This document shows, in pieces, positions 19,489-23,510 of a stretch of DNA of 64,000 nucleotides. The translations under genes were made by a program, and so were the position numbers. Origin of the DNA: Daejeonella oryzae DSM 19973 (GTDB lineage: Bacteria; Bacteroidota; Bacteroidia; Sphingobacteriales; Sphingobacteriaceae); assembly GCF_000422945.1 (NCBI RefSeq), contig NZ_AUHA01000003.1, forward strand, positions 434,001-498,000. The letters run 5' to 3'. Under the pieces are notes generated by a model. That model saw only the letters and a program-made list of their open reading frames with translations, did not search any database and was not told where the DNA came from. Every line of letters starts with the position of its first letter. The first letter of the stretch is position 1.

Positions 19489-19496
19489 TATTTTTG
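19489..19496 (+). promoter_or_regulatory. Radical-SAM gene -7 promoter box
   Basis: TATTTTTG matches TAnnTTTG and ends six bases before the ATG at 19503, again predicting a leaderless or nearly leaderless transcript. The -33 element is not recognisable. Confidence 0.45.
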
Positions 19497-19502
19497 GAGA
19501 CT

Positions 19503-20756
19503 ATGTCTGAAAGAATTCGTGAAAAACTATCCATACTGGCCGATGCAGCTAAATATGACGTCTCATGTTCATCAAGTGGAAGTAACAGAAAAAATCATAA
19601 TAAGAGTTTAGGAGATGCCGGAAATGGGATTTGCCATACCTACACAGAAGATGGACGGTGTGTGTCGCTTTTGAAAATTCTACTAACCAACTTTTGCATT
19701 TATGATTGCGCCTATTGTGTAACGCGAAAAAGTAACGATATCAGGAGGGTGGCTTTTACGGTACAGGAAGTAATTGATCTTACTATAAATTTTTACCGGA
19801 GAAATTATATTGAAGGATTATTTCTTAGCTCCGGAATTTTTAAAAATGCAGATTATACGATGGAAAGATTGGTTCAGGTTGCAAAGAAATTACGGCTCGA
19901 ACATAAATTTAATGGGTATATCCATTTAAAATCTATTCCTGGAGCCAGTAATGAATTAATGCATGAAGCAGGATTGTATGCCGATCGTTTAAGCATAAAT
20001 ATAGAAATGCCTACAGAGAGCGGATTAAAACTTTTAGCTCCTGATAAGAATCGGAATGATATGATCCAGCCAATAAATTATTTGAAGAATGAGATTATTC
20101 TTCATAATGATCAAAAAAAACTAATTAAAAAAACGCCCATGTTTGCACCGGCGGGCCAAAGTACCCAAATGATTATTGGCGCAACTGCAGAAAGTGATAA
20201 GGATATTATGCTTACAGCTGATAAATTCTACAAAGATTTTAATCTTAAAAGAGTTTACTATTCAGGTTTTGTTCCTATTAGTAATGATAAGCGTTTACCC
20301 GGCTTAGGAAGTTCAGTACCGATGATCAGAGAAAACCGTTTGTATCAAACAGACTGGTTGATGAGATTTTACGGATTCAATGTTAAAGAGCTTTTAAACG
20401 ATAGCAATCCTCATTTAGATTTGGATATTGATCCTAAACTGAGCTGGGCTCTTCGGAACTTAAGTCAGTTTCCTGTAGATATTAATAAGGCAGATCTGCA
20501 AATTCTTTTACGTATTCCCGGCATTGGTTTACAGTCCGCTTATAAAATAGTTCAGGGACGAAAATTTCAAAAGTTAAATTGGGAACATCTTAAAAAAATA
20601 GGAATTGCGGTTAACCGAGCCAAATATTTTATTACCTGTAATAGTCATGCCTATGAGCGAAGGGACTTGACAGCAATGAATATCAAACAATATATTCTCT
20701 CGGGCTCATCTGGAAAAAACATTAAAAACAATCCATATCAGTTGAATTTATTTTAA
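19503..20756 (+). CDS. Radical-SAM protein, putative DNA modification/repair (TIGR03916-like)
   Basis: This protein of 417 residues has the radical-SAM iron-sulfur motif CxxxCxxC in the context NFCIYDCAYC near residues 66-75. A C-terminal helix-hairpin-helix segment (LRIPGIGLQSAYKIVQGR, about residues 335-352) suggests nucleic-acid contact. It matches the TIGR03916-type putative DNA modification/repair radical-SAM family, whose reaction is not known. The ATG at 19503 is preferred over a TTG three codons upstream. It overlaps the DUF4130 gene by one base, the conserved partner in many genomes. Confidence 0.88.
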   Translation: MSERIREKLSILADAAKYDVSCSSSGSNRKNHNKSLGDAGNGICHTYTEDGRCVSLLKILLTNFCIYDCAYCVTRKSNDIRRVAFTVQEVIDLTINFYRRNYIEGLFLSSGIFKNADYTMERLVQVAKKLRLEHKFNGYIHLKSIPGASNELMHEAGLYADRLSINIEMPTESGLKLLAPDKNRNDMIQPINYLKNEIILHNDQKKLIKKTPMFAPAGQSTQMIIGATAESDKDIMLTADKFYKDFNLKRVYYSGFVPISNDKRLPGLGSSVPMIRENRLYQTDWLMRFYGFNVKELLNDSNPHLDLDIDPKLSWALRNLSQFPVDINKADLQILLRIPGIGLQSAYKIVQGRKFQKLNWEHLKKIGIAVNRAKYFITCNSHAYERRDLTAMNIKQYILSGSSGKNIKNNPYQLNLF

Positions 20757-21514
20757 TGGCCATTACTACTATAATATATGATGGCTCATGGGAAGGATTA
20801 CTGACTATCGTTTTTGAAGTTTATGATAGGAAATTATCAGACTTTAGAGTTTACAGGATTTCTGAGTCTCAACCTGCGCTTTTTGGAGAAACCTTATTAA
20901 TTAATATAGATCAATCAAAAGCATTAAGAGTTTGGGATGGGCTTAAAAAAAAGTTAAACGGGCCAGCCTGCCGAAATTTATTCTCCTGCTATTTATCAGA
21001 ATTAAAGGGCGTAGAAGATTTATTAATTGAGTTTATTCAACTTGTTTTTTCCTCAGTGGGTTCAGTTGAGAAATCTTTTACGAATCCATGTGTGCTCCGT
21101 TTATCTCAGATTGGAAAAATGGTACATCGCGAAAAGCATAGAATGGAAGCTTTTGTGAGATTTAAACTAACAAAAGATGAAATTTATTATGCTGCTATTG
21201 AACCTGATTATAATGTTATACCCTTGATTTTAAACCATTTTAAAAATAGATATGCAGATCAAAAATGGTTGATATATGATCTTAAAAGAGGTTATGGCAT
21301 TTATTATGATCTGAATTTTGTAGAGGAAATAACCCTTGATAAAAAACCACACATAAATCCGGAAAGTAACTTGCTCGAGGATTCAGAAATTTTATACCAA
21401 AATCTTTGGAAAGACTATTTTGAAAATGCCAATATTAAATCCCGTAAAAATACTTCTTTACATTTAAAGCATGTTCCGGTAAGATATTGGAAATATCTGA
21501 TTGAAAAGAATTAA
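20756..21514 (+). CDS. DUF4130 (TIGR03915-like) radical-SAM partner
   Basis: This 252-residue protein begins with a YDGSWEGLLTIVFEVYDRK segment typical of the TIGR03915/DUF4130 family, which is almost always encoded with the radical-SAM protein upstream. In some bacteria the domain is fused to a uracil-DNA glycosylase; here no such fusion is present. The ATG overlaps the upstream stop by one base, so stoichiometric synthesis is likely. The function is proposed to be DNA repair or metabolism, from context only. Confidence 0.85.
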   Translation: MAITTIIYDGSWEGLLTIVFEVYDRKLSDFRVYRISESQPALFGETLLINIDQSKALRVWDGLKKKLNGPACRNLFSCYLSELKGVEDLLIEFIQLVFSSVGSVEKSFTNPCVLRLSQIGKMVHREKHRMEAFVRFKLTKDEIYYAAIEPDYNVIPLILNHFKNRYADQKWLIYDLKRGYGIYYDLNFVEEITLDKKPHINPESNLLEDSEILYQNLWKDYFENANIKSRKNTSLHLKHVPVRYWKYLIEKN

Positions 21515-21693: not shown

Positions 21694-21724
21694 TTGTCAT
21701 ATGTCAAATAAAGTCTTACCTTAG
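21694..21724 (+). promoter_or_regulatory. Promoter of candidate non-coding RNA
   Basis: TTG (21694-21696), a 20-base spacer and TACCTTAG (21717-21724) fit the Bacteroidota promoter TTG-N19-21-TAnnTTTG with one mismatch. Transcription would begin near 21731. Confidence 0.65.
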
Positions 21725-21730
21725 AATTAT

Positions 21731-22071
21731 CAAGAACGAAGTACTTTGACAACCTGAAAGAATATCCTTAAGAACTAAGACTCTCGAGTTAAAGTATCGG
21801 ATTATTCAAACTTAAACTCAGATCAGAAAGTCGAAAGACAGCAGACTGAATACTTAAGTTCCAAAAGACAGGCATTACCTATACTACAACGATTCTACGG
21901 AAGAGTTGTAACGATAAAGTAATGGATTACGGGTGCTAATGTTTGAAAAGACAATTAGACTACGAATTAGTTGATTTGCAGAAGACTTGATACTTTGATG
22001 TAACTACGGTTGCTGAAAAAGTTAAAACGGAAGTTCTAATCGAAAGAGGCGAACTTCCGTTTGTTTTTTTT
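21731..22071 (+). ncRNA. Candidate structured non-coding RNA (about 340 nt)
   Basis: A region of about 340 bases without a convincing reading frame lies between a good promoter and a strong terminator. Hand folding gives a 10-bp helix (21741-21750 with 21788-21797), a long hairpin 21809-21860 (outer AACTTAA/TTAAGTT, inner TCAG/CTGA and GTC/GAC, GAAA loop), a hairpin 21885-21910 (TACAAC/GTTGTA, a symmetric GA/GA internal loop, TTC/GAA, UACG loop), a small hairpin 21919-21930, a hairpin 21936-21958 (CTAAT/ATTAG, GAAA loop, one bulged A) and a hairpin 22000-22013 (GTAAC/GTTGC, UACG loop). GNRA and UNCG caps and tandem G-A mismatches are typical of folded RNAs. I see no tmRNA, RNase P or SRP signature. 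It may be a free RNA, or a leader that controls phoH. The boundaries are estimates. Confidence 0.7.
22025..22071 (+). terminator. Strong intrinsic terminator of the RNA
   Basis: AAACGGAAGTTC (22025-22036) pairs perfectly with GAACTTCCGTTT (22051-22062) around a 14-base loop, followed by G and eight Ts. It lies about 50 bases before the phoH start codon. Confidence 0.92.
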
Positions 22072-22106
22072 AAAGCGTTTTTTTAAACTCTTTCTCTGTT
22101 TTTACC

Positions 22107-22119: not shown

Positions 22120-23466
22120 ATGGCTAAAGAAATTAATCCTCCCTTACAAAAGAAAATTTTCGTTCTCGATACTTCAGTAATTCTTTACGATCACGATGCA
22201 TTTCAAAATTTCCAGGAACACGATGTAGCAATCCCAATACAAGTTTTAGAAGAGCTGGATAATTTAAAATCCGGTAATGAAACCCGTAATTTTGAAGCCC
22301 GCAGTTTTATCCGGTTAATGGATGAATTTTCTAAGAATAGTTTGATTAATGAATGGCTTCCCTTAAAAAGTATTGGCTCCGGCAATTTTAAAGTGGTGAT
22401 GGATGAAAAACCATCTGCTGCGGATGCGGAGAAAATTTTTGGGGAAGGGAAGTTTGATCATCGGATATTAAATAGTGCTTTAAACCTTCAGGAAGAATTT
22501 CCGGAAAAGAAAGTTATTCTTGTATCAAAAGATATTTGTCTTCGTTTAAAAGCGAAAGCGCTAAATCTATATTCTGAAGATTATGAAACAGGAAAAGTTA
22601 AAAACGTTGAAGAACTTTACAGCGGAAAATCCACTCTGGAAGATTTATCCAATAAATTTCTGGACGAATTAATAACTAAAGGGAAAATTCCGGCAGAAAA
22701 ATTAGGTGTTCAAATTCGCCAGAATAATCATTTCTATATTTTAGAGAATAAACATAAAACCGTAATAGCCAATTACGACCCTCTTACCCATTTTCTAAAC
22801 TATATACCTGAACAATCTGTATTCCAAATAAAGCCAAAAAATCCTGAGCAGGCTTTTGCAATACATGCATTACTTAATCCAAATATTAAATTGGTTACAA
22901 TTCAGGGAAATGCCGGTACTGGTAAAACCCTGATTGCGTTGGCAAGTGCATTAGAGCAAAGAAAATATTTCAGGCAGATTTTTGTAACCAGACCTATAGT
23001 GCCATTAAGTAATAAAGACATCGGCTTTTTGCCTGGTGATGTAAAATCTAAAGTTGATCCCTATATGGCTCCCATCTGGGATAACTTAAAATTTATAAAA
23101 GAGCAGCAGGGTGATGATGATAAAACGCAGGCAAAAATTGATGAGCTGATTAGTAATGAAAAAATAGCTGTTGCACCTCTGGCTTTTATCAGGGGAAGAA
23201 CTTTGACAAAAATATTTTTTATTGTAGATGAAGCTCAGAATCTAACTCCGCATGAAATTAAAACTATAATCTCCAGGGCCGGGGAAAATACCAAAATTGT
23301 ATTTACAGGTGATATATACCAAATTGATACACCCTATCTGGATGCAGAGAGTAACGGACTTTCTTATTTAATTGATAAGGCTAAAAATCACCCACTTTAT
23401 GCGCATATTACTTTACAAAAAGGGGAGAGGAGTGAACTTGCTAATCTGGCGACAGATTTATTGTAA
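22120..23466 (+). CDS. phoH: PhoH-family PIN-domain ATPase
   Basis: This 448-residue protein fuses an N-terminal PIN-type ribonuclease domain (VLDTSVILYD at residues 11-20, acidic residues continuing to about 150) to a C-terminal PhoH NTPase. Walker A is GNAGTGKT near residues 262-269 and Walker B is VDEAQN near 369-374. PIN-PhoH proteins have been described as RNA helicase-nucleases in the cytosol. The start follows the strong terminator of a candidate structured RNA, raising the possibility of leader control. It converges with a cold-shock gene across a shared terminator. Confidence 0.93.
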   Translation: MAKEINPPLQKKIFVLDTSVILYDHDAFQNFQEHDVAIPIQVLEELDNLKSGNETRNFEARSFIRLMDEFSKNSLINEWLPLKSIGSGNFKVVMDEKPSAADAEKIFGEGKFDHRILNSALNLQEEFPEKKVILVSKDICLRLKAKALNLYSEDYETGKVKNVEELYSGKSTLEDLSNKFLDELITKGKIPAEKLGVQIRQNNHFYILENKHKTVIANYDPLTHFLNYIPEQSVFQIKPKNPEQAFAIHALLNPNIKLVTIQGNAGTGKTLIALASALEQRKYFRQIFVTRPIVPLSNKDIGFLPGDVKSKVDPYMAPIWDNLKFIKEQQGDDDKTQAKIDELISNEKIAVAPLAFIRGRTLTKIFFIVDEAQNLTPHEIKTIISRAGENTKIVFTGDIYQIDTPYLDAESNGLSYLIDKAKNHPLYAHITLQKGERSELANLATDLL

Positions 23467-23481
23467 AAAGCCTTTAAACGC

Positions 23482-23510
23482 AAAAAGCATGTCTCTCGAC
23501 ATGCTTTTTT
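23482..23510. terminator. Bidirectional intrinsic terminator
   Basis: AAAAAGCATGTC (23482-23493) and GACATGCTTTTT (23498-23509) form a 12-bp stem with a TCTC loop, with T-tracts in both orientations. It serves phoH and the convergent cold-shock gene. Confidence 0.9.

Follow-up and report, generated by a model that had tools for sequence, protein, structure and literature searches.

A candidate structured RNA gene upstream of phoH in Daejeonella oryzae and its association with PIN-PhoH proteins in the Sphingobacteriaceae

The antitoxins of known type III systems consist of short tandem repeats, which the toxin processes. Mycobacterial PhoH2 belongs to a highly conserved group of proteins whose function is poorly characterised; according to the available portion of PMC7390352, PIN ribonuclease and RNA helicase are joined in this protein, a hexamer has been modelled for it, and it forms a toxin-antitoxin system with a small upstream gene, phoAT. 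In Synechococcus, a PIN-PhoH operon restrains a phage, as stated in the accessible text of PMC5490813.

The locus reported here also contains a PIN-PhoH gene. It lies in the window, the 64,000-nt stretch of the Daejeonella oryzae DSM 19973 genome that was analysed, and its protein-coding neighbourhood is as follows.

19494..20756, + strand: TIGR03916 radical-SAM protein, putative DNA modification/repair function (profile match), in the same neighbourhood as the RNA
20756..21514, + strand: TIGR03915/DUF4130 putative DNA repair protein (profile matches); some RNA copies lie beside a homologue of this gene without phoH
22120..23466, + strand: PIN-PhoH, a PhoH2-type ribonuclease-helicase and the proposed partner of the RNA (Pfam PIN_4 and PhoH; co-occurrence)

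The PIN-PhoH protein has an N-terminal PF13638 (PIN_4) and a C-terminal PF02562 (PhoH) domain. Its acidic residues D17, E45, D113 and D138, which we take to be the PIN active site, occur unchanged in 48 of 48 proteins, and the Walker A motif GNAGTGKT is intact in the window protein. NF053827 (PhoH2) matches over the whole length with 250.6 bits, against a curated cut-off of 680; as judged from these profiles, the window protein shares the PhoH2 architecture and is not the NF053827 equivalog. Beyond phoH, between it and a convergent cold-shock protein gene, the hairpin AAAAAGCATG..CATGCTTTTT (window 23482-23510) has the look of a two-way terminator.

The upstream gene ends at 21514 and phoH starts at 22120; the gap of 605 bases that separates them holds no ORF of at least 50 aa. 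This gap contains a predicted structured non-coding RNA gene of about 340 nt, whose boundaries are inferred from a promoter, a closing helix (P1) and a terminator. Paired percentages in the following list refer to alignment cells over 106 homologues.

21694..21724, + strand: promoter with TTG (21694-21696) and, after a spacing of 20 nt, TACCTTAG (21717-21724), from the sequence; presumably of the Bacteroidota type
21728..22071, + strand: structured non-coding RNA gene, with homologues elsewhere; match to covariance model R1 of 303.7 bits, E 1.8e-72, this copy being itself among the 18 training sequences of the model
21728..21734, + strand: P1 5' strand UAUCAAG, partner CUUGAUA at 21986-21992, closing the RNA; 89.8% paired (n = 106)
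21744..21750, + strand: P2 5' strand CUUUGAC, partner at 21970-21976; 85.9% paired, two-sided changes at 5/7 pairs
21752..21756, + strand: P3 5' strand ACCUG, partner CAGGC at 21869-21873; 96.6% paired
21830..21839, + strand: P6 hairpin GUC-GAAA-GAC, GUCGAAAGAC; 75.4% paired, with one of its pairs significant in the comparison with simulated alignments
21875..21922, + strand: P4 (UUAC at 21875-21878, GUAA at 21919-21922), enclosing P5; 91.8% paired
21893-21902, + strand: P5 hairpin UUC-UACG-GAA, UUCUACGGAA; 95.0% paired
21941..21952, + strand: P7 hairpin GUUU-GAAA-AGAC, GUUUGAAAAGAC; 84.3% paired
21993..22020, + strand: P8, 3' hairpin with a UACG loop, inner stem GUAACUACGGUUGC at 22000-22013; 80.4% paired in the outer and 88.1% in the inner part
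22025..22062, + strand: intrinsic terminator with a 12-bp stem, the conserved apex AAUCGAAAGA and a T run after the stem, from the sequence

The start of the RNA is placed near 21728, not at 21694, because the latter belongs to the promoter. An earlier note, made from the letters of the window, had described a TTG/TACCTTAG promoter with 20-base spacing, some 340 bases without a coding frame, hairpins with GNRA or UNCG loops and a perfect 12-bp terminator. All of these are present: the promoter at 21694-21724, the hairpins at GUCGAAAGAC, UUCUACGGAA, GUUUGAAAAGAC, GUAACUACGGUUGC and UCGAAAGA, and the terminator stem as AAACGGAAGTTC (22025-22036) paired with GAACTTCCGTTT (22051-22062), with UCGAAAGA at 22040-22047 forming its apex. 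Across the 106 distinct homologues, the promoter pattern TTG-N18-22-TAnnTT is found in 93, the terminator AACGG..CCGTT with its T run in 101, and the apex TCGNMAGA in 82. Length after the promoter block has a median of 380 nt (280-609). The longest ORF in the sense direction is 26 aa long in the median and never exceeds 70 aa. Folding of the RNA strand in the window beats 100 of 100 shuffles (z = -2.90).

The 106 sequences remain from 118 distinct ones with an nhmmer match at both ends, once near-identical sequences were removed; copies matched at one end only (e.g. L164, L169 and L171-L173) were left out, and the set is biased to the better conserved copies. RNAalifold predicts P1 (UAUCAAG/CUUGAUA), P2, P3 (GCCUG/CAGGC), P4, hairpins and the terminator, with P1 joining the 5' and 3' parts of the RNA in this model. 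The compensatory changes in Sphingobacteriaceae homologues that the earlier note had proposed to look for are found, with two-sided changes in 44 of the 53 consensus pairs. Canonical combinations occupy 90.3% of cells, a figure that leans toward structure since the consensus was derived from the same alignment; with the 3' partner slid by 1-3 columns as a control, the values are 38-52% canonical and 28-34 pairs with two-sided changes. P1 has two-sided changes at 4/7 pairs. P2 is imperfect in the window species, and P6 is absent from the 53 consensus pairs. When 40 tree-simulated alignments serve as the null of a G-test, only three pairs reach E < 0.05, one in P3, one in P6 and one in the terminator. 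The 13 top-ranked pairs are all 82-100% canonical and compatible with a single nested structure, while the 14th (columns 91/122) falls outside the consensus.

None of the 4227 Rfam models, a search that the earlier note had also suggested, reaches its gathering cut-off in the whole window or in 16 loci of the family, and none reaches E <= 1 in eight distant loci. A CRISPR-DR27 match at 22081-22105 (28.8 bits against a cut-off of 35, E 0.017) was taken as chance, and ARAGORN, run on the window only, found no tRNA or tmRNA there. In agreement with the view of the earlier note that this is not one of the common housekeeping RNAs, RNase P RNA (RF00010) is found at G000:C2:557758-558128 (271.3 bits), away from the RNA locus, and SRP RNA is also located elsewhere in the same genome; both identities were rejected on this ground. 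The possibility that the RNA is a strongly diverged member of a known family, such as 6S or Pedo-repair, derives some encouragement from 6S RNA: neither RF00013 nor RF01685 matches in the own genome, the RF01685 half of this result being weak as it had no positive control, and the role is left unfilled by those models. It is nonetheless very improbable in view of the Rfam results, the separate RNase P and SRP RNA genes, the Pedo-repair matches at other loci without an R1 match, and the branched fold. The fold of 6S RNA is rod-shaped. We regard the RNA as a categorically new class, outside Rfam; our search of the open-licence literature found no earlier description, and one may exist elsewhere.

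Pedo-repair RNA (RF01715) has no match in the own genome, and matches at E <= 1 in 5 of 101 genomes. Identity with it was rejected because these matches lie at other loci, are of unrelated sequence and lack an R1 match where read. R2, a model of the 3' domain of the RNA, gave one weak match (17.2 bits) in Pedo-repair loci, away from the Pedo-repair stretch. Full-length RF01715 matches with E values of 1e-20 to 3e-24, below the gathering score, were seen in three genera, and the present cut-off may miss part of the Pedo-repair family:

L220, G118:C12:90629-90829: RF01715 match below cut-off
L221, G126:C16:40644-40859: RF01715 match below cut-off
L222, G102:C4:307705-307914: RF01715 match below cut-off

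Conservation in relatives, which the earlier note had named as a check, is evident. By BLAST, the RNA is present in 16 of 60 genomes; six of these carry it twice, the copies being separated by about 650-710 bases. The covariance model R1, with 346 positions and 18 training sequences, was built from BLAST matches to the RNA, not picked by phoH, and finds it in 123 of 251 Sphingobacteriaceae genomes and in 10 of 25 genera, the own genome being counted in both samples; 93 of the 123 have a single match. Where full copies stand in tandem, each has its own promoter and terminator. A pattern scan of genomes gave 37 stretches, 24 of them members by nhmmer, from Daejeonella, Pedobacter, Hufsiella, a record with the label Flavihumibacter and Sphingobacteriales MAGs; the 13 stretches that remain have at most a short partial nhmmer match and the look of chance. 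Carriage by plasmids was rejected on the lack of a blastn match, and carriage by phages because neither of two exact pattern matches in viral contigs has an R1 match.

The arrangement of the RNA and phoH was counted in the 123 genomes with one listed copy per genome, the copy nearer phoH where several were seen. In 100, the RNA precedes phoH in the same orientation by no more than 10 kb, and in 67 of these by no more than 200 nt; one of the 67, G031, has phoH split over two contigs and was scored by the piece beside its RNA. In eight genomes the two are divergent within 1.5 kb, in seven they share a contig at a distance of 23-815 kb, and in eight they are on different contigs (in one of the latter, G177, both genes are at contig ends and may be linked). 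Divergent loci in genus g4 are L141, L153, L157-L160, L162 and L164. A predicted ORF lies between the RNA and phoH in L041, L108 and L109. The RNA is beside the TIGR03915/TIGR03916 repair gene pair without an adjoining phoH in L103, L169, L171, L172 and L173, as is a second RNA copy at L096 10813-11164, and in some other loci it is next to neither the TIGR03915 gene nor phoH.

The earlier note had offered two readings, a dedicated RNA gene or a leader of phoH. A cis-acting leader (an attenuator or riboswitch-like element) controlling phoH transcription would suit the window and 66 other genomes, where the RNA precedes phoH in the same orientation by at most 200 nt, and by eye there is no clear second promoter between the terminator and phoH in the window. 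Such a leader, however, always precedes the gene that it regulates and is transcribed with it. This reading is largely refuted, and we rate it as highly improbable: 23 of the 123 genomes depart from the same-strand upstream arrangement even at a distance limit of 10 kb, the RNA being divergent in eight and far away or on another contig in 15, and it is also divergent in the distant family f24. The intervening ORFs, the terminator in 101 of 106 copies, and the tandem copies with a promoter and terminator each point the same way. The dedicated gene is the part of the earlier proposal that stands, on the conserved promoter and terminator, the covariation, the divergent or distant copies and the lack of an Rfam match at cut-off.

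Full-length PIN-PhoH, searched at E <= 1e-60 in the same 251 family genomes, is present in 124. Both RNA and protein are found in 123 genomes, PIN-PhoH only in one, RNA only in none and neither in 127; the Fisher p of 7e-73 ignores kinship and is not to be taken literally, as the genomes are related and independent events far fewer than 251. The single exception is G226, where the phoH match starts 155 nt from a contig end, on its upstream side. In 18 family genomes without an RNA match (of 24 searched singly) there is no full-length PIN-PhoH; 12 of the 18 have a match to the ATPase part only, in a frame of 322-353 aa, and six have nothing at E 1e-30. The argument is carried by the mixed genus of the window species, in which 12 of 20 genomes have both and eight neither, and by the separated pairs. 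The RNA occurs almost exactly where PIN-PhoH occurs in the family, which suggests that the two work together; the earlier note had not anticipated this association.

Shared ancestry could produce the same picture. An independent trans-acting or housekeeping RNA that resided in an ancestral phoH neighbourhood would co-occur with PIN-PhoH through descent and joint deletion of the locus, and it counts against a partnership that one deletion can remove a linked RNA-phoH pair. The neighbourhood is shared with the TIGR03915/TIGR03916 genes, beside which the five loci and the second copy in L096 listed above have the RNA without phoH; a genome outside the family, G456, has a strong RNA without PIN-PhoH; and the genomes are not independent. 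We nevertheless consider this explanation unlikely, since seven family genomes keep both genes 23-815 kb apart and eight on different contigs, the 127 family genomes without PIN-PhoH contain no RNA match, and adjacency persists while orientation to phoH varies.

We favour, with moderate confidence, an autonomous structured RNA of a new class that acts in trans with PIN-PhoH, a partnership to which co-occurrence and conserved adjacency point. The RNA would be transcribed as an autonomous gene from its own promoter to its own terminator, would bind PIN-PhoH in trans as a ribonucleoprotein partner, and once bound would gate or direct the PIN ribonuclease. In the role of a regulator, a scaffold or a substrate, it may sequester PIN-PhoH, present it to substrates, or itself be a regulated substrate; the adjacency, the joint absence and the conserved acidic residues fit all three, whether holding inactive, steering or serving as substrate.

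A more specific form of coupling would be a type III-like toxin-antitoxin system, in which PIN-PhoH would be a toxic ribonuclease and the RNA, in the position of the mycobacterial PhoAT protein, would neutralise it. The toxin-antitoxin role of the mycobacterial RNase-helicase PhoH2 with phoAT (PMC7390352) and the restraint of a phage by the Synechococcus PIN-PhoH operon (PMC5490813) are, in the accessible parts of these sources, in line with such a role, as are the two tandem copies in 6 of the 16 BLAST-matched genomes and the fact that the RNA is never without PIN-PhoH in the family sample. However, the unit is about 340 nt long with its own terminator, and is not made of short tandem repeats; 93 of the 123 genomes have one match, and the RNA can be divergent or far from phoH, as in the 23 of 123 genomes counted above. 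An antitoxin role seems unlikely.

Across 395 genomes of the class, R1 matches in 26, of which 14 belong to other families, mostly over short 3'-end stretches. Among 18 distant loci read, a promoter of the Bacteroidota type stands 300-620 nt ahead of the 3' end in 13, and in 12 of these P1 is legible by eye, the exception being L210; compensated P1 changes in distant loci include CCAAG/CUUGG, ACAAG/CUUGU and CCAAAC/GUUUGG. The 3'-domain model R2, which includes P8 and matches in other families, was made from 41 sequences; it has only nine base pairs and may catch terminator-like hairpins. At E <= 0.01 it matches in 53 of 395 class genomes, 40 of them outside the family. PIN-PhoH is present in 33 of these 40, against a base of 232 in 380 (Fisher p 0.002, kinship ignored), and at E <= 1e-5 in 14 of 16 (Fisher p 0.02, kinship ignored), the two exceptions being G456, with a strong RNA in a 94% complete genome, and G286, which is 69% complete. 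Conversely, 199 of the 232 outside genomes with PIN-PhoH have no R2 match at E <= 0.01, through divergence or true absence. The weakest R2 matches, such as that in G035 (a family member without PIN-PhoH, E 1.7e-4), are probably false.

The class sample includes six PIN-PhoH genomes of family f24; each of them has an R2 match, and in all six loci the RNA adjoins phoH divergently. A further f24 genome, G059, has neither. Locus L242 of family f13 has the same divergent arrangement. The listed genomes of family f10 comprise five with both, two with the RNA only and two with PIN-PhoH only, and 15 of 20 distant loci read have no phoH within about 5 kb. Run without filters on the sequence flanking phoH in 18 loci of other families, R2 matched three times at E <= 5, two of the matches lying in the same place just upstream of phoH (L290, E 0.029; L282, E 1.1) and the third inside a predicted ORF (L280, E 1.7); in several of the 18, the gap upstream of phoH is below 100 nt, too short for the RNA. 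Judged from sequence matches, the RNA appears to have spread in diverged form through other families of the class, where the statistics are weaker and exceptions are present. A broader claim, that an ancient, class-wide Bacteroidota RNA is a dedicated partner of PIN-PhoH, holding or steering the helicase-nuclease and kept or lost with it wherever the two lie in the genome, is plausible and more tentative than the reading we favour within the family.

Two side observations concern distant genomes. Some loci of family f9 have a conserved non-coding block directly upstream of phoH, with a terminator and a weak R2 likeness (L290 1272-1351; L282 1271-1350); this is possibly a further diverged copy of the RNA, and serves as a lead only. 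Some distant genomes, namely G295 (L237 and L238) and G540 (L240 and L241), are matched by R2 two or three times, each time at a different locus, and paralogues of the RNA may exist there.

If the partnership is true, the RNA would offer direct experimental access to the poorly characterised PhoH2 proteins, a large Bacteroidota RNA class would lie beyond Rfam, and a ribonuclease-helicase would be coupled to an RNA in trans instead of a protein antitoxin. The partnerships of Ro60 with Y RNA and of OLE RNA with protein resemble the proposed one in that a structured RNA has a dedicated protein. Type III toxin-antitoxin systems share the coupling of a non-coding RNA gene to a ribonuclease gene; the present RNA differs in its fold of about 340 nt with its own terminator and no short tandem repeat array, and neutralisation is putative. 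GOLLD, ROOL and OLE, in the available portion of PMC12286853, are likewise large and ornate bacterial RNAs, but none of their Rfam models matched in the window or the loci searched. Pedo-repair RNA, reported as a structured RNA candidate from Pedobacter in the accessible text of PMC2864571, differs in its loci and its unrelated sequence, and neither R1 nor R2 matches its stretch. The PhoAT-PhoH2 operon of mycobacteria, as far as the available portion of PMC7390352 describes it, has a small partner gene directly upstream of the PIN-PhoH gene in the same way; the partner there is a small protein, whereas here it would be a structured RNA without an ORF that is sometimes divergent from phoH or far from it.
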